Source: Dysgonamonadaceae bacterium (GTDB lineage Bacteria; Bacteroidota; Bacteroidia; Bacteroidales; Azobacteroidaceae). From it: 35,514 bases of DNA. The position numbers were made by a program, and so were the translations under genes. The notes under the pieces were generated by a model. The model had not been told where the DNA came from. It saw nothing but the letters and a program-made list of their open reading frames with translations, and ran no database searches. Positions 5,994-35,514 of the stretch are shown piece after piece. The stretch is taken from NCBI GenBank assembly GCA_031259075.1, contig JAIRLY010000006.1:1-35514 (forward strand). Reading direction: 5' to 3'. How positions within the stretch are numbered: the first letter of the stretch is position 1; each line of letters opens with the position of its first letter.

Positions 5994-6797
5994 TTATCTT
6001 TTTATACACCGGACAGGATATGCACCCCCTGTCCATGTGTTATTATCTTGTCTTTCCAACCTTCCTTCGCCACCAACAAATAGTACGTTCTCGACTGTAG
6101 TGTAGTACCAAACTATATTACTCCAATGCGAAAATTCCGACTTCGCAATATTCGCGCATCGCCCTGCATAGATCCCCCAATCTAACCAGTATGGCCAGGC
6201 CGTCGGCGACGAAGTATGGGCATTCAAATAAGTCGCCAAGCCTCGCCATTCGGTGGGATTGGGCAAATACCATCCGTCTGTATTAGGACAAGCCTCAGGC
6301 GCTTGCTCAAAGGTGTAATAATACCCCCGTTCTCCTTCAGCACGACCGGTATAAGTTGTAGCGCTTGGAGTTCCTTCTTTCGAATTTTCAAGCATCCATG
6401 TACCGACGTCATAGGGATACGTATAAATTTTATACATATTGTCTCCAATTTTTGCCGTAGCCGAACCCTCATTTGTATCTTCGCTATTATCCGTATTGAC
6501 GACATTCCATTTTTTGCCATTCCAAATATAAATACCTTTTCCGTTGCCGTCTTTAATGGATGCATTTGTATTGTAAACCATCATTCCTGTAGCCGTACCG
6601 ACATCGCCGGCTAATCCAAAAGTAATAACATCAGCCAGCGAAACGGTTGGTAATTTGAATCCCTGAGTGGTCGATTGTAAATCCAACACTGCGCCGTCAT
6701 GCGGATCGGCTTCACTACCGATTACCACTTGTGCATTCACACTTGCTGTGCTCAACATTAGGAGCATCAGCGCTAAAAACATCATCTTTCTTTTCAT
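5994..6797 (-). CDS. Secreted FISUMP-like protein (paralog 1)
   Basis: The 267-residue product starts with a Sec signal peptide (MKRKMMFLALMLLMLSTASVNA, no lipobox cysteine), then a module shared with the genes at 9619 and 15931: VVIGSEADPHDGAVLDL, LPTVSL, GMMVYNT and GIYIWNGKKW (about residues 24-100). The rest resembles a diverged FISUMP domain (Fibrobacter succinogenes major paralogous domain): a GTWMLEN core, a GWYLPNPTEW block at about residues 185-195, and the closing YPVRCIKR. FISUMP proteins are secreted or surface proteins of unknown function. A perfect 12-base inverted repeat lies upstream (6844-6914) and a strong hairpin follows the stop. Confidence 0.75.
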   Translation of the reverse strand: MKRKMMFLALMLLMLSTASVNAQVVIGSEADPHDGAVLDLQSTTQGFKLPTVSLADVITFGLAGDVGTATGMMVYNTNASIKDGNGKGIYIWNGKKWNVVNTDNSEDTNEGSATAKIGDNMYKIYTYPYDVGTWMLENSKEGTPSATTYTGRAEGERGYYYTFEQAPEACPNTDGWYLPNPTEWRGLATYLNAHTSSPTAWPYWLDWGIYAGRCANIAKSEFSHWSNIVWYYTTVENVLFVGGEGRLERQDNNTWTGGAYPVRCIKR

Positions 6798-6843
6798 GTT
6801 TGAAAAATTAAATTAATATTTATTGTTTATTTGAAACGGTTCC

Positions 6844-6914
6844 GGTAAAGACAACCGGCTTTTATTAAACAATGAGAACAAATGATTTTTTTAATTCGAA
6901 TAGTTGTCTTTACC
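6844..6914. repeat. Perfect 12-bp inverted repeat upstream of the FISUMP-like gene
   Basis: GGTAAAGACAAC (6844-6855) and its exact complement GTTGTCTTTACC (6903-6914) flank 47 bases. The pair lies 47-117 bases upstream of the minus-strand start at 6797, in the expected promoter area. I see no clear TAnnTTTG box inside. It could be paired operator half-sites, a leader hairpin or a small invertible segment. Confidence 0.7.
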
Positions 6915-6990
6915 ATCGACCGTATATTCATATTATACTATGTTCAAGATTATTTAAAAATACGAAGCGTGGGGACCTTTAACTTTATCC

Positions 6991-7105
6991 GCTTATAGAG
7001 GTTCTCGACTACCCATAGCTGCAAATAAGTTATACCCACGCCTTCAACGTGAGCGTTTACAAACTTACTCCTGCAGCTATCGAAATTGTCGAGATTTCTA
7101 TAAGC
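6991..7105 (+). ncRNA. Candidate structured RNA: nested long hairpin
   Basis: The arms nest in order: 6991-6999 with 7097-7105 (9 bp), 7003-7008 with 7089-7094 (6 bp), an asymmetric bubble (7009-7014 against 7081-7088), 7015-7023 with 7072-7080 (9 bp, perfect), 7027-7031 with 7062-7066, and 7037-7040 with 7048-7051. Two G-U pairs (7000/7096, 7001/7095) extend the outer stem only on the plus strand. A plus-strand terminator-like hairpin lies at 7284-7330. I do not recognise the family. The overall shape (long rod with a central bubble) is like 6S RNA, but that is only a shape resemblance. Confidence 0.3.
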
Positions 7106-7283
7106 AAGAATAAAAGCTAACGCTTTCTGAATTAATATGTAATTTTAAAAAATACTGTCTGTTTCTTTATGAAATTTTAATTAATCGTTTTATGTTTATA
7201 AAATCGCACAAAATTAGTGAGATTTTTTGAAATAGAAAAAGAAAAAGGAAAAAATAACAGCACTTCAGCGATTAAAAAACAAT

Positions 7284-7330
7284 AGTCGCAAAGCTTAGTT
7301 ATCACAACTTCCTTGCGGCTTTAATTTTTT
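7284..7330 (+). terminator. Rho-independent terminator-like hairpin on the plus strand
   Basis: Arms 7284-7293 (AGTCGCAAAG) and 7312-7320 (CTTGCGGCT) pair with one G-U and one bulged A, and TTAATTTTTT follows. No plus-strand protein gene precedes it in the 1.4 kb back to coaD, so it suggests an untranslated plus-strand transcript. The candidate structured RNA at 6991-7105 is the obvious upstream partner. Confidence 0.4.
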
Positions 7331-7380
7331 ATAAATGAAAGAACAGTATAGTTAACCACTCAGTCTCAAATACTTAGGGG

Positions 7381-7430
7381 CTGAGACCTCTGCCTTGTCT
7401 TATCCTGCAAAATTAGCCGGAATTTTTTAT
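7381..7430. repeat. Dispersed 50-bp repeat, copy 2
   Basis: It matches 121-170 at 46 of 50 positions. Here it lies 21 bases beyond the stop codon of ettA. A small hairpin, GTCTCA at 7363-7368 with TGAGAC at 7382-7387, overlaps one end. The bases just beyond (7431-7445, CCCTGAATCGCTGAT) recur exactly at 17753-17767. Confidence 0.75.
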
Positions 7431-7451
7431 CCCTGAATCGCTGATCTTTTA

Positions 7452-9137
7452 TTAGCTTATTAATTTACGATATTTGACTCGTTTAGGTTCGACATTACCT
7501 AAGCGGTGTCGTTTGTTTTCTTCATATTCCGAATAGGAGCCTTCAAAGAAAAACACTTCCGAATCTCCTTCAAATGCAAGGATATGAGTGCATATTCTAT
7601 CCAAAAACCATCTATCATGAGAAATAACAACGGCGCAACCGGCAAAGTTTTCTAATCCTTCTTCCAATGCGCGTAAAGTATTCACATCAATATCATTCGT
7701 TGGTTCGTCGAGCAAAAGGACATTGGCTTCCGACTTTAAAGTTAAAGCCAGATGCAAACGATTTCTTTCGCCTCCGGAGAGTGCGCCGCATTTTTTTTCC
7801 TGATCCGCACCGCTGAAATTGAATCTTCCCAAATAAGCCCGCGAATTGATTTCTTTTCCACCGACGCGAATAAATTCCGTTCCACCGGAAACGATCTGAA
7901 ATACTGTTTTTTCAGGATTTATTTCCGCATGACTTTGATCAACATATCCGATGCGGACTGTTTCACCCACTTCAAATATTCCCTTATCCGGTTTGTCTAA
8001 ACCCATAATCAAACGGAAAAGCGTTGTTTTACCAGCGCCGTTGGGACCGATAATTCCGACAATTCCATTGGGAGGAAGCATGAAGTTTAAATTATCATAT
8101 AACAATTTATCTCCGAATGCTTTTGCTACTTGGATGGCTTCAATGACTTTATTTCCTAAACGAGGTCCGTTGGGAATAAATATCTCCAATTTTTCCTCTC
8201 GTTCTTTTGTATCCTGATTCAATAACTGTTCGTAAGAATTTAGGCGAGCCTTTCCTTTAGCATGGCGGGCTTTTGGCGCCATTCGCGACCATTCCAATTC
8301 CCGTTCTAAAGTTTTACGGCGCTTACTGATTTGTTTTTCTTCTTGAGCCATTCGCAAGGTTTTCTGTTCCAGCCAAGAAGTATAATTTCCTTTCCAGGGA
8401 ATACCTTCTCCTCTGTCTAATTCCAGAATCCAACCGGCTACATGGTCCAGAAAATAACGGTCGTGCGTAATACAGATGACCGTTCCGGCATATTGTTGAA
8501 GATGCTGTTCCAGCCAATCAATGGATTCTGCGTCCAAATGGTTGGTTGGTTCATCCAACAAAAGAATATCCGGCTGTTTCAACAGAAGACGACACAATGC
8601 CACGCGCCGTCTTTCCCCTCCCGAAAGCGTTCCGACCAGTTGATCTTCCGGTGGACAACGCAAGGCATCCATAGCTCGTTCCAACTTACTGTCGATGTTC
8701 CATGCGTCTGTAACATCTATTTTATCTTGTAACTCTGCTTGACGAGCAAAGAGTTTATCCATTTTATCCGCATCTTCGTAATATTCGGGAAAGCCGAATT
8801 TTTCGTTTATTTCTTCATATTCTTTCAAGAGGCCAATTGTATCTTGAACTCCTTCTTGTACAATTTCTTTTACGGTCTTTGAATCGTCTAATGACGGATC
8901 TTGTTCCAAATATTCGATAGAATATCCCGACGAGAAAACTACTTCTCCCTGATATTCTTTTTCTATCCCTGCAATAATTTTCAGCAAGGTAGATTTTCCG
9001 GAGCCATTCAAACCTATAATTCCGATTTTCGCTCCATAGTAGAAAGAAAGATAAATATCTTTAAGTACTTGTTTGTTAGGAGGAAAAGATTTACTTACCC
9101 CTACCATTGAAAAAATAATTTTTTTATCATCTGCCAT
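7452..9137 (-). CDS. ettA: ABC-F protein, energy-dependent translational throttle
   Basis: The 561-residue product from the ATG at 9137 matches EttA in length and layout. It has two ABC ATPase domains without membrane segments. Domain 1 has Walker A GLNGSGKS, signature LSGGERRR and Walker B LLLDEPTNHLD. Domain 2 has GPNGAGKT, LSGGERNR and LLLDEPTNDID. The C-terminus (EPKRVKYRKLIS) is the EttA-type tail. EttA binds the ribosomal E site and gates elongation by ATP/ADP ratio. The frame is open up to 9215, but conserved sequence begins at MADDKKIIFSM, and the promoter at 9163-9194 lies between, so 9137 is the start. Confidence 0.92.
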   Translation of the reverse strand: MADDKKIIFSMVGVSKSFPPNKQVLKDIYLSFYYGAKIGIIGLNGSGKSTLLKIIAGIEKEYQGEVVFSSGYSIEYLEQDPSLDDSKTVKEIVQEGVQDTIGLLKEYEEINEKFGFPEYYEDADKMDKLFARQAELQDKIDVTDAWNIDSKLERAMDALRCPPEDQLVGTLSGGERRRVALCRLLLKQPDILLLDEPTNHLDAESIDWLEQHLQQYAGTVICITHDRYFLDHVAGWILELDRGEGIPWKGNYTSWLEQKTLRMAQEEKQISKRRKTLERELEWSRMAPKARHAKGKARLNSYEQLLNQDTKEREEKLEIFIPNGPRLGNKVIEAIQVAKAFGDKLLYDNLNFMLPPNGIVGIIGPNGAGKTTLFRLIMGLDKPDKGIFEVGETVRIGYVDQSHAEINPEKTVFQIVSGGTEFIRVGGKEINSRAYLGRFNFSGADQEKKCGALSGGERNRLHLALTLKSEANVLLLDEPTNDIDVNTLRALEEGLENFAGCAVVISHDRWFLDRICTHILAFEGDSEVFFFEGSYSEYEENKRHRLGNVEPKRVKYRKLIS

Positions 9138-10347: not shown

Positions 10348-10402
10348 AAATATCCCTATTAATTGGGGGGATACGATAGTAAATATCCCTATAAATGGGG
10401 AT
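10348..10402 (+). promoter_or_regulatory. Two tandem palindromes, candidate operator of the porin/imelysin operon
   Basis: Two copies of a near-identical element starting AAATATCCCTAT lie at 10348-10372 and 10381-10402. Each is an inverted repeat: TATCCC (10351-10356) with GGGATA (10368-10373), and ATCCC (10385-10389) with GGGAT (10398-10402). Their centres are about 31-32 bases apart, close to three helical turns. The second ends on the promoter's -33 box (10401-10404). This is the classic layout of a dimeric regulator's site. I cannot name the regulator. Confidence 0.65.
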
Positions 10403-10432
10403 TGTAAAGAAGAATCGGAACTTGTACTTTTG
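10401..10432 (+). promoter_or_regulatory. Promoter of the porin/imelysin/di-heme operon
   Basis: ATTG (10401-10404), a 20-base spacer and TACTTTTG (10425-10432, exact TAnnTTTG) lie 26 bases before the ATG at 10458. The -7 box is inside a small palindrome GTAC-TTTT-GTAC. The -33 box overlaps the second upstream palindrome. Confidence 0.7.
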
Positions 10433-11778: not shown

Positions 11779-12939
11779 ATGAAAAGTTTAATGAGAAATG
11801 GTGTACTCGTATGGGCGCTAACAGCGTTCGTTTTGAGTTTTTCTTCTTGCGAAGAAGAAATAAAAGAAAATAACGATGACGTAAAAGTAAATGCGGCTGT
11901 GGAGGCATGTTCAAAACTTGCAACATTATTTACAAGTATTGAATATGACAAGGGAAGCGATGATTTGTATAAACAAATTCTGGAAAATTATGTTAATTCA
12001 ACGATTATTCCGACATATCGCTCTTTGGCGGAAGCTGCCCTTGAAATGCGTACGGCCAATGATGCATTAAAAGCAAATCCGGCCAATGAAACCATGAAGA
12101 AAGCGTCGGAAGCATGGATGAAAGCGCGTATCTGGTGGGAAATCAACGAAGCGTTTCTTTTTGGTCCGGTAGGCGAAAGCGCTCTGGATATTGACGGCCA
12201 CATTGATTCCTGGCCTTTGGAATTGGAAGCCATCCAAACTTCCATTGCCGAAGGGGGAAATATCACCGGTCAGGATGCATGGAATTTGAATGCGGAAGTG
12301 ATCGGCTTTCACGTGACCGAATATTTACTTTACCGCGACGGACAGTCCCGTCCGGTAAGCGATTTGACGTCTGCCGAATTGAATTATCTTACCGCAGCTA
12401 CCGATGCATTGGTATGGGATTGCGTTCTGGCTTATGTGGCTTGGGTTGGCGAAGACAATGTATCAGAGGAGATGAAAACCGTTTTCAAGGAAAACTCTGA
12501 TGTGGTAGCTCATTTGGAGAATAATCCTACTTATAAAAATTTTGCCGCTAAGATGAAAGATGCTTCCGGTTTTTCAAATTCCTTTGCTTCTGCTGTTAGT
12601 CAAATTTCCGATGGCGCTGCCGAGATAGCGAATGAAGTAGGAGAAACAAAAATAGCCGCCCCTTATGCAACCGGTAAGGTGGAAGAAGTCGAATCGTGGT
12701 ATAGCTGGCATTCATTGGACGACTATAAAAACAATATTGAAAGTATAAAAAATGCGTATTTAGGAGGTGTTGATGGCAGTACCCGTACTTCGACATCCCT
12801 GAGTACTTATGTTAAACAGATAAGCACGGATTTAGATACAGCTATTAAACGTCAAATAGATGACTGTATTTCGAAAATTGACGCCATTGGCGCCGACGGA
12901 AGATCTTTTTATGAAGTTGTGCGTGATCGTAAAAAATAA
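11779..12939 (+). CDS. Imelysin-family (M75-like) lipoprotein
   Basis: The 386-residue product carries a lipoprotein signal with lipobox FSSC and lipid-modified Cys24. The GxHxxE motif of imelysin/EfeO-like proteins is at residues 176-181 (GFHVTE). The preceding ARIWWEINEAFLFGPVG and DGHIDSWP fit the imelysin fold, which is a helical bundle. Members include the iron-binding EfeO and IrpA, and the peptidase activity is doubtful. Three acidic residues directly after the Cys (EEE) resemble the Bacteroidetes lipoprotein export signal, so surface exposure is possible. It lies 28 bases after the porin and 8 before the di-heme gene. Confidence 0.85.
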   Translation: MKSLMRNGVLVWALTAFVLSFSSCEEEIKENNDDVKVNAAVEACSKLATLFTSIEYDKGSDDLYKQILENYVNSTIIPTYRSLAEAALEMRTANDALKANPANETMKKASEAWMKARIWWEINEAFLFGPVGESALDIDGHIDSWPLELEAIQTSIAEGGNITGQDAWNLNAEVIGFHVTEYLLYRDGQSRPVSDLTSAELNYLTAATDALVWDCVLAYVAWVGEDNVSEEMKTVFKENSDVVAHLENNPTYKNFAAKMKDASGFSNSFASAVSQISDGAAEIANEVGETKIAAPYATGKVEEVESWYSWHSLDDYKNNIESIKNAYLGGVDGSTRTSTSLSTYVKQISTDLDTAIKRQIDDCISKIDAIGADGRSFYEVVRDRKK

Positions 12940-12947
12940 ATAATTAA

Positions 12948-14486
12948 ATGAAAGTCTTAAAATTATCTTTGAGAATTGTATTATTCCTTGTATTTGTTGT
13001 TTCTTGTGCGGATGAAAAAGGGACAGGTTCTGGAGAAATTGTAATACCGGATATTCCTTCCAATAGACCTCCCTATAGTGAAGAACGTTCGGAATGGTAT
13101 CCGGGTGGCGAAAATGGAACTGTATTTATTTCTAATACATTGTCTTATCAACAAGCGATGCCTTTCATTGACGCTAATCCGGAATTATACAGGGCTTTTA
13201 TGCGTGGTGAACGTATTTTTGAGAAAAGTTTCGTCACAACGGAGGGAATGGGTTATTCGGGATTAGGTCCTGTTTATATCCGGAAATCATGCATCGCCTG
13301 CCATCCGAGTTACGGAGGAAGAAGCAAACGGGTAGACAAATTCGATACCAACGATAGCCGAAACGGTTATTTGTTAATGATTTATGATCCTAATTCTCCG
13401 ACGCTGGCTTTAGCAAGCAATTATTTTACCGGAATGACTCAAACGCAAGCTGTTTCTCCCTATAAATCGCCGATCAAAGAATCGGGCATACACCTCGAAT
13501 GGCTTCCTTATACGGATGAATACGGTAACAAATATGAAGATGGAACTTCTTATTCGCTTATTTATCCTAAAATAACGATTGATCAGGACGCTATTTTGTT
13601 CAAAAATTTTGATATGAGCAAACACGCCGCTTCCATCGAAGCTACGATTGGCATTTACGGCGTTGGCTTGTTGGATGCTATTTCGGACGAAGACTTGCGG
13701 GCAGAACATCAAAGTCAACAAACGCGCGGGTATTGTCCGGGCGTTATCGGAGCAGATATTGATGAAACAGGATTAAACCCGTATTATCCGGGCAAACATC
13801 CCGGAAGGTTCACTTATCTTTGTACACGTGCTACGATTGATAACGGACCGGGTTCGAATGCCCTTTGGAATATTACGAATGTGACGCGTCCCGACAGAAG
13901 ATACCATTATATTACGGAAGAATATGCCAAAGTAATGTCCAAAGATCCGGATGTTCAAAAAGCATTGGGACAAAGTGAAGCGGAAATTTTTGCCTATCTG
14001 ATGTCCAAAGAGCTTAAGCCGGAAATGACAATGGAAGATTACAATGATTTTATGGTTTGGCATCGGGCAGTCGCTGTTCCGGCAGCCCGTAATTTGGACG
14101 ATGAGAAAGTGAAAAAAGGGAAAACGCTCTTCAGCGAAGCCGGTTGTGCCGCTTGTCACAAGCCTTCGTGGACTACGCGTAGCGATTATAAGCCGCAACC
14201 CGAACTTTCCAACCAGAAGATTTATCCTTATACGGATCTTTTGCGTCACGACTTGGATATGTATGAACCGGGGCGGGTGAAACTTTGCCGGACAACTCCT
14301 TTGTGGGGACGCGGCTTAATGCCTGTCGTATCCGGACATTCGGATCATCTCCACGATTTACGCGCCCGCAATTACGAAGAAGCTATCTTGTGGCATGGAG
14401 GAGAAGCAAAACAAAGTAAGGATAAATTTCGCAAAATGTCGAAAGAAGACCGTGATGCTTTGGTTAAATTCTTGGAATCTATATAG
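12948..14486 (+). CDS. Di-heme c-type oxidoreductase (DUF1111 family) lipoprotein
   Basis: The 512-residue product has a lipobox VVSC with Cys20, then two CxxCH heme c sites: CIACH (residues 115-119) and CAACH (400-404). The spacing, the RNGYLLMIYD block, PLWGRGLMP and the C-terminal HDLRARNYEEAILWHGGEA match the DUF1111 'di-heme oxidoreductase' family, distant relatives of MauG and bacterial di-heme peroxidases. Earlier annotation as thiol oxidoreductase is not proven. It would need cytochrome c maturation, which the next gene (CcsA type, 5 bases on) can supply. The role in an iron oxidation or reduction step is inferred from its imelysin partner. Confidence 0.88.
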   Translation: MKVLKLSLRIVLFLVFVVSCADEKGTGSGEIVIPDIPSNRPPYSEERSEWYPGGENGTVFISNTLSYQQAMPFIDANPELYRAFMRGERIFEKSFVTTEGMGYSGLGPVYIRKSCIACHPSYGGRSKRVDKFDTNDSRNGYLLMIYDPNSPTLALASNYFTGMTQTQAVSPYKSPIKESGIHLEWLPYTDEYGNKYEDGTSYSLIYPKITIDQDAILFKNFDMSKHAASIEATIGIYGVGLLDAISDEDLRAEHQSQQTRGYCPGVIGADIDETGLNPYYPGKHPGRFTYLCTRATIDNGPGSNALWNITNVTRPDRRYHYITEEYAKVMSKDPDVQKALGQSEAEIFAYLMSKELKPEMTMEDYNDFMVWHRAVAVPAARNLDDEKVKKGKTLFSEAGCAACHKPSWTTRSDYKPQPELSNQKIYPYTDLLRHDLDMYEPGRVKLCRTTPLWGRGLMPVVSGHSDHLHDLRARNYEEAILWHGGEAKQSKDKFRKMSKEDRDALVKFLESI

Positions 14487-14491
14487 GATGA

Positions 14492-15643
14492 ATGGAGAGA
14501 GGCAAAAGGAGAGAGAAAATCAAATATATAGCGTTTGGTAGCTTAATAGCGCTTTTAATAATACTCGCGACAGCTACCGTCGTCGAAAAACTTTGGGGTA
14601 GTGAGTTTGTTCATGCACAAATTTACAAAGCAGGGTGGTTTGTCGCTCTATGGTTTGTATTAGGCGTCAGTGTACTTTTTATTTTGTGCCGTGCGCCGTG
14701 TGTCATGCACCCTTTTACTCTATTATTGCATTGTTCGTTAGTAATTATACTCCTTGGAGCGTTTATTACTTATCTTACGGGCGACCGGGGATTTGTTCAT
14801 ATAAGACAAGGAGAAATAGCCAATTTCTATATTTCGGAAGAGAATGCTGTGAAGCATTCTCTTCCGTTTAACGTGAAATTACTTTTATTTGATATAGAAT
14901 ATCATCCGGGTACGGATGAGCCGGCCGATTATATTAGTTTCCTGAAAATAGATGAAGAAGTATGCAGGGTTTCGATGAATAAGATTTTCAAACGACAAGC
15001 CTATCGGTTGTATCAAATGGATTATGATGCCGACGAAATGGGAACAACTCTCTTGGTCAGTCATGATCCTTATGGGATCGCTGTCACCTATACGGGATAT
15101 GTACTACTTGCGATTTCCATGCTGGGATTACTGTTTATTCGAATAGATTGGAGAGGGATGATTTACACATTCGTTCCGGTTGCCGGATTGTGGTATTACA
15201 TTTCACAACTGAATCCGATAACTCCGGTCTTGCGTTCGCCACTATTAGCTGCTCATGTATCGGTCATTATGATTTCTTATTTGCTCCTTTTGATAATTGC
15301 CGTTTTAAGTATTATCGGCCTTTTTTCTAAAAAATTATCTAAAAAATTTTATCTCCGGAATAGTAAACTGCTGTATCCCGCATTGTTTCTCTTGGCCACA
15401 GGCATCTTTATCGGAGCCGTTTGGGCTAATATTTCGTGGGGAAGATATTGGGGCTGGGATGCTAAAGAAACTTGGGCGTTAATCACGCTATTGGTTTATG
15501 CATTTCCTTTACACAAAGGTAGTTTGCCTTTTTTCCGAAATCAACGAAAATTCCATATTTATTGCGTTATCGCTTTCTTTTCAATTTTAATGACATTTTT
15601 TGGCGTCAGTTATTTTTTGGGAGGAATACATAGCTACATATAA
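14492..15643 (+). CDS. ccsA: Compact ResB/CcsA-type cytochrome c assembly protein
   Basis: The 383-residue membrane protein carries the heme-handling tryptophan-rich motif WGRYWGWDAKETW (residues 316-328). Flanking histidines are at His255 (AAHVSV) and His380 in the typical CcsA ending GGIHSYI. The N-terminal third has transmembrane segments and an extracytoplasmic part (GFVHIRQGEIANFYI onward) like a short ResB. Fused ResB-CcsA proteins are normally far longer, about 800-1000 residues, so this is a minimal version. System II CcsA exports heme and attaches it to CxxCH apocytochromes. Position right after the di-heme gene suggests a dedicated assembly factor. Confidence 0.8.
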   Translation: MERGKRREKIKYIAFGSLIALLIILATATVVEKLWGSEFVHAQIYKAGWFVALWFVLGVSVLFILCRAPCVMHPFTLLLHCSLVIILLGAFITYLTGDRGFVHIRQGEIANFYISEENAVKHSLPFNVKLLLFDIEYHPGTDEPADYISFLKIDEEVCRVSMNKIFKRQAYRLYQMDYDADEMGTTLLVSHDPYGIAVTYTGYVLLAISMLGLLFIRIDWRGMIYTFVPVAGLWYYISQLNPITPVLRSPLLAAHVSVIMISYLLLLIIAVLSIIGLFSKKLSKKFYLRNSKLLYPALFLLATGIFIGAVWANISWGRYWGWDAKETWALITLLVYAFPLHKGSLPFFRNQRKFHIYCVIAFFSILMTFFGVSYFLGGIHSYI

Positions 15644-17243: not shown

Positions 17244-17559
<316 letters not shown>

Positions 17560-17752
17560 AGAAAAATCCGGCGAGTTCCAACTGTTTTGTGTTAAAAATA
17601 TAAAATGTGCTTTTATTGAAACCGGTTGTCATTAATTTGAACAGATTTATATAATTCGGATACAAATGTATAACAGTTTTTCCATAAAACAATGAAAAAG
17701 TGTAAAAAAATATGAAGTCGACGGTTTTAGGTTATTATTTAATTTTGTTTCT

Positions 17753-33954: not shown

Positions 33955-35514
33955 TCATTTAATGCAGGTACAAACAAACGTAATGCTGGCGTTTGAATCA
34001 TCATAACTTTCCATGTTATTAAAAGTAAAAACAACGTTAGTTCCATCAATCGATAGCGTAACATATTCGTTCTTGTAGAAGCCTATTATAGTTTCTCCGG
34101 ACATCTGCACGAAGTTCGTAATATAAGCGGAATTCACGACTGTACAGTAGTCCGACACGTCGAAGGAGTCTTGGAACGTAGGTGTTATTGCTTTCTTTGG
34201 TATATATAAATACTTAGTAAGCGAATAGGAGTTGATGTTGCCTGCAGCCCACCCGGTACCGTTATAATATAGCACCTGTCCAGCCTTTGGAGTTGTTCCG
34301 CTCCATACCGCAGCGCTGCCAACGGTGGTCAAAATCTGTCCGTTTGTGCCCGGATCAATTTTTATGGTCGTAACAGCTTTATCCTTTATCTTATCGGTGG
34401 TTACCGCAGCATCCGCTATTTTCGCCGTAGTAACGTTAGCATCTTTTATCTTGGCGGTGGTTACAGCATTAGAAGCTAAATCGGCTTCGGCCACCTCACC
34501 GTCTTTTATCTTGGCACTTGTTACCGCATTGGCTGCAATGGTAGTCGCATTGTTGTCAGCAGAAGCCGTTACGTCTCCGGTAAGAGCAGCGCGCTTAAAA
34601 CTGGTGCCATCAAGTGTAATCGAGGTTGAACCGCTATAAGTAGTGTTTTTAGCGTCAGCCCAAGCAACAGAAGTGCCGGATGTGGTCAAAACCTGTCCGC
34701 TTGTGCCCGGATTAATTTTCGCGATCGTTACGGCTTTATCCTTTATCTTATCGGTGGTTACCGCAGCATCCGCTATTTTCGCCGTAGTAACGTTAGCATC
34801 TTTTATCTTGGCACTTGTTACCGCACCGTCTGCAATGGTAGTCGCATTGCTGTTGGCGGAGGCCGTTACGTCTCCAGTAAGTGCAGCACGCTTAAAACTG
34901 GTACCATCAAGCGTAATTGAGGTTGAACCGCTATAAGTGGTGTTTTGATCGGCGGCCCAAGCAACAGAGGTGCCGGATGTTGTCAAAACCTGTCCGCTTG
35001 TGCCCGGATTAATTTTTGCGATCGTAACGGCTTTATCCGCAATTTTTGCCGAAGTAACCGCTCCGTCTGTGATCCTTGCCGAAGTCACTCCACCGTCCGC
35101 AATTCCCAATGTATAAGGCGATCCCGCAGTTCCCGAACCGGACCGGGTCAAACCGCCACTAGCCGTTGCGGTAGTCACTTCGTTGCCGATTATTCCATCG
35201 GCTTCAGTTGCTAAACCGGCATCAGCAGCCGGCGCCCAAGCTGATCCGTTGTATTTCAATACTTGCCCGCTGGTAGCGCTCATGCTGTTCAGTTTGGCGG
35301 CTGTCACCGCTTTATCCTGAATATCTGCCGAACTAACGGATTTATCGACAATTTTTGTCGAGTCGACTGAGTTGGCGGCTAATTTTGCCAAAGTAACATT
35401 CGCATTTCTTATGTTAGCAGTAATCACGGCATTGTCCTGAATATCCGTCGAACTAATGGATTTGCTTTTAATTTTCGTTGAGTCGACCGCATCAGCCGCG
35501 ATCCTTGCCGAAGT
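33955..35514 (-). CDS. Large repeat-built secreted or fibre-like protein, 5' end outside window
   Basis: The frame is open from the right edge (35514) to the stop at 33955, so 519 residues of a longer protein are visible. There is no start in the window: the GTG at 35427 lies inside the repeats. Short repeats of about 10 residues (AVTSAKIKD, NVTTAKIAD, AVTTDKIKD) alternate with GTSGQVLTTSGTSVAWA and an insert of about 35 residues (TYSGSTSITLDGTSFKRAAL onward), which appears twice almost unchanged. A unique C-terminal domain of about 100 residues follows (from YLYIPKKAITPTF to FVCTCIK). Such repeats occur in phage tail fibres and surface fibres. The GQVLxYNGxxW units resemble parts of the module in the FISUMP paralogs. 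Confidence 0.75.
   Translation of the reverse strand, partial: TSARIAADAVDSTKIKSKSISSTDIQDNAVITANIRNANVTLAKLAANSVDSTKIVDKSVSSADIQDKAVTAAKLNSMSATSGQVLKYNGSAWAPAADAGLATEADGIIGNEVTTATASGGLTRSGSGTAGSPYTLGIADGGVTSARITDGAVTSAKIADKAVTIAKINPGTSGQVLTTSGTSVAWAADQNTTYSGSTSITLDGTSFKRAALTGDVTASANSNATTIADGAVTSAKIKDANVTTAKIADAAVTTDKIKDKAVTIAKINPGTSGQVLTTSGTSVAWADAKNTTYSGSTSITLDGTSFKRAALTGDVTASADNNATTIAANAVTSAKIKDGEVAEADLASNAVTTAKIKDANVTTAKIADAAVTTDKIKDKAVTTIKIDPGTNGQILTTVGSAAVWSGTTPKAGQVLYYNGTGWAAGNINSYSLTKYLYIPKKAITPTFQDSFDVSDYCTVVNSAYITNFVQMSGETIIGFYKNEYVTLSIDGTNVVFTFNNMESYDDSNASITFVCTCIK
34345..34985 (-). repeat. Tandem near-identical DNA repeats inside the fibre-like gene
   Basis: Bases around 34371-34455 and 34731-34815 share a run of about 80 identical bases (TTATCCTTTATCTTATCGGT onward). 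The segments 34565-34650 and 34865-34945 share the insert with a few changes. The low divergence points to recent duplication or recombination and makes copy-number change between strains likely. Confidence 0.8.

Follow-up and report, generated by a model that had tools for sequence, protein, structure and literature searches.

An operon for a porin-like protein, an imelysin-family lipoprotein and a di-haem oxidoreductase in a Dysgonamonadaceae genome is preceded by two nearly identical sequences in tandem, and the question is what protein reads them. In the stretch of 35,514 nucleotides that was analysed (the window), the copies AAATATCCCTATTAATTGGG (10348-10367) and AAATATCCCTATAAATGGGG (10381-10400) agree at 18 of 20 positions and start 33 bp apart, just where an earlier sequence-only reading had seen them. 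The exact 12-mer of these repeats occurs at the two sites and nowhere else in the 3.8 Mb genome, and matches with three mismatches are found in the rest of the genome at the control level; that the tandem palindromes stand well beyond chance is confirmed. The TTG and TACTTTTG that follow form a textbook Bacteroidetes -33/-7 promoter, in which the ATT before the G of the -33 element is invariant (alignment A1). The covariance model described below, R1, recognizes the proximal operator in this genome with an E-value of 4.5e-6; the distal operator has a degenerate right half, as it does in most orthologs. No RNA element of the Rfam collection was found within the window.

Positions of the operators, promoter boxes and operon genes in the window, and of the candidate regulator genes elsewhere in the same genome
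Feature	Position	Strand	Remarks
Distal operator, core TCCCTAT-TA-ATTGGGG	10353..10368	+	second-best 16-mer of the whole 35.5 kb window; 33 bp upstream of the proximal operator
Proximal operator, 7-2-7 palindrome TCCCTAT-AA-ATGGGGA	10386..10401	+	best 16-mer of the whole 35.5 kb window; 32 orthologous promoters
-33 element TTG	10402..10404	+	abuts the proximal operator directly
-7 element TACTTTTG (TAnnTTTG)	10425..10432	+	20 nt after the -33 TTG
Gene 1, outer-membrane porin-like protein, 430 aa	10458..11750	+	no Pfam match; orthologs in the same operon
Gene 2, imelysin-family lipoprotein	11779..12939	+	PF09375
Gene 3, di-haem oxidoreductase, c-type	12948..14486	+	PF06537
Gene 4, ResB/CcsA-type cytochrome c biogenesis protein	14492..15643	+	PF05140 and PF01578
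LuxR-type gene of the pair (lux), contig 389 (G000:C389, L253)	6589-7179	-	profile search
Hemerythrin gene of the pair (hem), contig 389 (G000:C389, L253)	7179-7847	-	profile search

Relatives of the operon are common enough to show which features of the promoter are held constant. A relative of the imelysin gene is present in 29 of 61 close genomes, and in the majority of these the porin and di-haem genes are its neighbors; the 23 named contigs that carry a relative of the di-haem gene are termite-gut-type Bacteroidales MAGs (Candidatus Symbiothrix, Dysgonamonadaceae, Tannerella and others). The motif is conserved in 32 orthologous upstream regions, with the 21-mer consensus TATACCNANAAATAGGGATTG, and is absent from three orthologous operons (L058, L060 and L061). 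The sequence-only reading had named lack of conservation before orthologous operons as a ground for refutation, and apart from these three the motif passed that check. In every one of the 32 motif-bearing regions the 21-mer starts exactly 41 nt before the TAnnTTTG box, and the -33 and -7 elements are always separated by 20 nt of sequence that is not itself conserved. At locus L078 a symmetric variant, TCACTACTTATAGTGA, is seen by inspection at the same spacing before GACTTTTG. One genome (G032) has two paralogous porin-imelysin-DHOR operons (L061 and L065), with the operator before one and absent from the other.

The core of the 21-mer, at positions 3-18, is a 7-2-7 inverted repeat, TMCCYAW-N2-WTRGGKA. 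When the aligned 16-mer profile is compared with its own reverse complement, its symmetry is 0.57, as against -0.04 +/- 0.20 in permutations of the columns, none of 5000 of which was as symmetric, and the symmetry is high about one axis only. The palindrome described from the single sequence is thus real, but the GGGGGGAT arm assigned to its first copy lies 3 nt out of register with the 16-mer derived from orthologs. To look for a second site, the top-scoring site of every promoter, nearly always the proximal one, was taken into a symmetric matrix. Thirty promoters extend far enough upstream for this search, and in every one the best-scoring additional 16-mer falls at -31 to -33 relative to the first, with 24 at exactly -32; the chance of such a position is 3 in 54 for each promoter, and the promoters are not independent. 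Transcription of Bacteroidetes promoters starts about 4 nt after the -7 box. With the start assumed there, the centres of the two sites fall near -42, the class II position, and near -75, on one face of the helix. The promoter architecture has been kept in 32 diverged promoters, and the results support the arrangement that had been proposed, with sites three helical turns apart that end on the -33 element, as well as a specific, probably dimeric, regulator.

A regulator dedicated to the porin operon, as at first suggested, is not what the wider distribution of the motif indicates. Scanning this genome and its relatives with R1, a sequence-only covariance model of 51 nt that spans the site, the spacer and the -7 box, delimited a regulon: when loci in the 61 genomes were taken in rank order and duplicates collapsed, a score of at least 17 defined 43 distinct promoters. 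They precede 18 TonB-dependent receptors, 10 porin operons, 4 flavodoxin genes, 2 feoAB loci, 2 hemerythrin genes, 1 P-type ATPase and 6 others, among which a CobN-like protein and an ABC exporter were noted by eye. The strongest matches are often outside the porin operon. Since the 41-nt spacing is built into R1, its matches are skewed toward it; the operon promoters and the regulator-adjacent loci in G057, G044 and G026 can be found free of this bias. A distal copy is present at 31-33 bp in 26 of the 43 promoters, as compared with a background of 0.14% per offset. Pfam families at the motif loci include the TonB receptor, DUF4374 and PepSY combination of the XusABC layout, HmuY and flavodoxin. 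The same promoter architecture thus stands before TonB receptors of XusABC-like and HmuY types, feoAB, flavodoxin and regulator genes, and this content supports its assignment to a putative iron-limitation regulon. The clear members in the genome under study are the window operon and two TonB-receptor loci, on contigs 120 and 155; the latter is XusABC-like and has a full tandem operator. On contig 120 a good motif promoter is followed by a receptor gene (L210, 7047-8169) that is split into short reading frames; this member of the regulon looks decayed here.

The genes that accompany the motif suggest the identity of the regulator. A pair of genes, encoding a hemerythrin-domain protein (PF01814) and then a protein with a GerE helix-turn-helix (PF00196; hereafter the LuxR-type protein), adjoins feoAB in G059 and an HmuY operon in G034, and a profile search finds the pair in nearly all motif-bearing relatives, usually once per genome. 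The order hem-lux-[motif]-porin operon is seen in G020, G004 and G026; [motif]-hem-lux-feoAB in G057; hem-lux-[motif]-gene-feoAB in G059 and G038; hem-lux-[motif]-TonB receptor-HmuY in G034; and feoAB-[motif]-hem-lux in G044. In G056 the pair is divergent from the porin operon. The porin operon of G054 closes with a single open reading frame in which hemerythrin and GerE domains are joined; a second fusion occurs in G055. The pair of the genome under study, on contig 389, does not adjoin a motif promoter.

Co-occurrence extends to the order as a whole. Among 148 Bacteroidales genomes at least 90% complete, with the motif called at E<=0.01, the hemerythrin gene of the pair is present in 101, the motif in 77 and both in 73 (2x2 table 73/28/4/43, p=7e-14), and the association is also seen across the 61 genomes (p=0.0016); genomes are not independent, so that these p-values overstate. 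In the order-level sample 21 motif matches are no more than 3 kb away from the hemerythrin gene, where 0.34 would be expected. Four of the sampled genomes have weak motifs only and no pair, and among the 61 the motif is present and the pair not detected in G007, G013 and G033, which are MAGs of 81-89% completeness. At the level of the class, related hemerythrin genes are rarer and weaker, being found in 25 of 149 genomes, 5 of them of the order. The comparative search for a co-occurring regulator thus converges on one pair, which accompanies the motif in 73 of 77 motif-bearing genomes, and the candidate regulator with the most support is a NarL/LuxR-type protein whose receiver is degenerate and whose gene accompanies that of a RIC/YtfE-like hemerythrin protein. 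As a separate matter, G030, G037, G041, G056 and G060 keep the pair and have no strong motif match; their operators may have diverged.

Both proteins resemble characterized families and depart from them in some respects. The LuxR-type protein of this genome matches the GerE domain with an E-value of 7.5e-16, a domain that it has in common with NarL and NarP, and NarL (1a04) is among its closest solved matches. The NarL consensus is TACYYMT-N2-AKRRGTA. It too is a pair of inverted heptamers in 7-2-7 arrangement, like the operator described here. Almost no variation is seen in the recognition helix, [I/V]-[S/T]-H-R-[K/R]-N, and at the positions of Lys188 and Val189 of NarL the LuxR-type proteins mostly have Ile and Ser/Thr. 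A phosphorylatable receiver was not found: the protein has no above-cut-off match to Response_reg, the acidic pair DD is mostly EP, and most residues of the acidic pocket are gone. Unlike NarL, 41 of 45 aligned proteins have another residue in place of the receiver phospho-Asp (D59), in 35 cases Asn, and the partner is a hemerythrin-like protein instead of a sensor kinase.

The hemerythrin partner keeps the six di-iron ligand positions of the RIC type (H91, H135, E139, H167, H210 and E214) in 43 of 43 sequences, and its best matches in the PDB are ScdA (9j47) and YtfE (5fnn). Unlike RIC, YtfE and ScdA, it scores far below the equivalog cut-off of TIGR03652 (52.3 bits, against 204.7) and is coupled to a LuxR-type gene or domain; at its N-terminus, by inspection, GFG replaces the Cys-Cys-Gly-Gly motif, and C47 is invariant. 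The G054 fusion has no receiver between hemerythrin and helix-turn-helix, which makes the hemerythrin domain the likely regulatory module. Taken together, co-occurrence, adjacency and fusion suggest that the partner is the sensory half of the system. If so, it would be an iron sensor belonging to neither the Fur nor the DtxR family. A comparison of working principle only may be drawn with eukaryotic FBXL5, in which a hemerythrin domain reads iron status (weak match to 3v5x, E 0.0018); FBXL5 controls protein degradation, not transcription, and its partner is unrelated.

The tandem palindromes are very probably the double operator of a CdhR-type LuxR/NarL activator that acts with its hemerythrin partner to switch on iron-uptake genes in low iron. 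One dimer of the LuxR-type protein would occupy the proximal 7-2-7 palindrome at about -42, where it could touch the -33 element and sigma, and a second dimer would bind three helical turns upstream, at about -75, on the same face of the DNA. When iron is scarce, the hemerythrin partner would lose its di-iron center, and the LuxR-type protein would thereby be released or activated. It might then turn on the porin/imelysin/di-haem/ccsBA operon, TonB receptors of the XusA and HmuR types, feoAB, flavodoxin and its own operon. The analysis itself shows that the operator is conserved and rigidly placed, what the regulon contains, and that the regulator genes co-occur with the motif, adjoin it and are at times fused; low-iron induction and hmu activation come from published work. 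We infer binding of the motif by the LuxR-type protein, activation rather than repression at this promoter, and sensing of iron by the partner.

Published work on other Bacteroidales fits this proposal. The operons PG1236-PG1237 (CdhR) and BT0519-BT0520 have the same gene order, hemerythrin and then DNA-binding regulator, and the two are fused in Prevotella intermedia (PIN17_RS10465); low iron induces BT0519-20 by 16-20-fold and PG1236-37 by about 7-fold (PMC10434189). Adjacent hemerythrin and LuxR-type genes in this order were found in the genome under study and in most relatives, and gene order, domains and the published fusion, rather than a sequence comparison, are what argue for orthology with PG1237 and BT0520. 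Low iron also raises BT2473-82 (CcsA, porin, thiol oxidoreductase and peptidase M75) by 63-324-fold in B. theta (PMC10434189), and the gene content of that locus matches the window operon. CdhR systems share, besides induction by low iron, a link to heme uptake of the hmu/HmuY type (PMC10434189, PMC10101095, PMC9666725). CdhR is a regulator of hmu (PMC10101095, PMC9666725); its reported targets are hmuYR, which it activates (PMC10101095), and mfa1 and luxS, which it represses in P. gingivalis (PMC4082711), as against the wider regulon described here. The CdhR literature surveyed yielded neither an operator motif nor a tandem arrangement of sites nor a broader set of targets, and an earlier published site may exist; the P. 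gingivalis hmu promoter, sought by way of an EMSA primer, had no match in 300 genomes of one family. A search of the text of papers on the HaeR two-component system (PMC3764172), CrpPg and PgFur turned up no matching motif.

Several other readings of the palindromes deserve consideration. Because the regulon is one of iron uptake, its content is compatible with Fur, and the palindromes might be Fur boxes at which an iron-bound Fur-family repressor covers the -33 element until iron is low. The genome has Fur-family genes of its own (C282, 89.8 bits; C167, 39.5 bits), and in G019 a Fur-like gene is divergent to a motif promoter, the sole such adjacency. The occurrence of canonical Fur, however, does not follow the motif: the median -log10E is 4.64 in genomes with it and 4.03 in those without (61 genomes, p=0.48, against 0.0016 for the hem-lux pair), Fur is strong in motif-poor G041, G048, G050 and G058, and canonical Fur is undetected in motif-rich G018, G020 and G024. 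The Fur box is GATAATGATAATCATTATC, which the 7-2-7 TMCCYAW core does not resemble, and rigid placement at -42 and -75 would be unusual for a steric repressor. Fur-box systems also control iron-uptake promoters, but with a different motif and regulator family and with neither the activator geometry nor the co-occurrence seen here. We consider this reading very unlikely. As candidates for the regulator itself, Fur was rejected as patchy and lacking association with the motif, and DtxR as a family that is missing from this genome and from nearly all motif-bearing genomes.

It is also conceivable, though unlikely, that the LuxR-type protein acts at these promoters as a repressor that blocks the -33 element in iron-replete cells. 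The abutment of the proximal operator on that element and the repression of mfa1 and luxS reported for CdhR would suit such a role; in favor of activation are the constant distance between the class II site and the -7 box, the helical phasing of the second site, the description of CdhR as an hmu activator and the joint rise of pair and regulon in low iron. A different helix-turn-helix protein with symmetric 16-bp sites, for example a CRP/FNR-family member of the HcpR, PgRsp or CrpPg type in class II position at -41.5, would be equally at home on a 16-bp core centered near -42, and P. gingivalis has members of that family linked to heme (PMC12040651, PMC6955866). Among motif-adjacent genes checked by eye, however, no CRP/FNR gene recurs, whereas hem-lux recurs 21 times within 3 kb; one Crp-like gene beside hem-lux, in G027, is an isolated case, and we regard such an operator as highly improbable. 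Finally, orthologous promoters share descent, and part of their likeness is inherited rather than selected. Yet both sites and all distances have been retained amid divergence of the 20-nt spacer and the flanks, and the same architecture precedes unrelated genes, so that a chance repeat or shared ancestry with no regulator involved is scarcely credible.

Activation of iron-uptake genes by the CdhR-type pair, most likely across gut and oral Bacteroidales in low iron, would bear on a gap in knowledge, since both iron sensing in Bacteroidetes and the mechanism of CdhR regulation were described as unclear in a 2023 stimulon paper (PMC10434189). A broader proposal is that Bacteroidales sense iron scarcity independently of Fur, through a RIC-like di-iron sensor that controls an activator of the LuxR type with a dead receiver on tandem 7-2-7 operators at -42 and -75, and that this is the main iron-starvation regulon of the order; we would put the chances for and against it at about equal. 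Bacteroidetes are dominant in the human gut and mouth, and an operator together with a named regulator-sensor pair makes iron sensing directly testable in B. thetaiotaomicron. With the operator as a tool, iron regulons can also be read in any genome or metagenome of Bacteroidales.

A few minor observations concern Fur relatives and the remainder of the window. At one locus (L141) a Fur-like gene (6629-7130) and an adjacent TonB receptor are divergent to a motif-controlled XusABC-like operon, with the motif at about 7187; cross-talk between two metal regulators is possible there. At six loci (L142, L143 and L151-L154, in G005, G014, G029, G031, G002 and G012) a Fur/Zur-like domain and a TonB-dependent receptor share one uninterrupted open reading frame of about 510-890 aa, in which the receptor keeps its own signal peptide. 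L151 and L152 have no ATG at the junction (GTG and GCG) and may therefore be real fusions; others could be translationally coupled through an internal ATG. Within the window, the open reading frame at 17305-17595 has repeated Ser-Leu (SLSLSLSL) at its end, and the one at 33955-35427 encodes a long protein with TSAKIKDANVTTAKI repeats.
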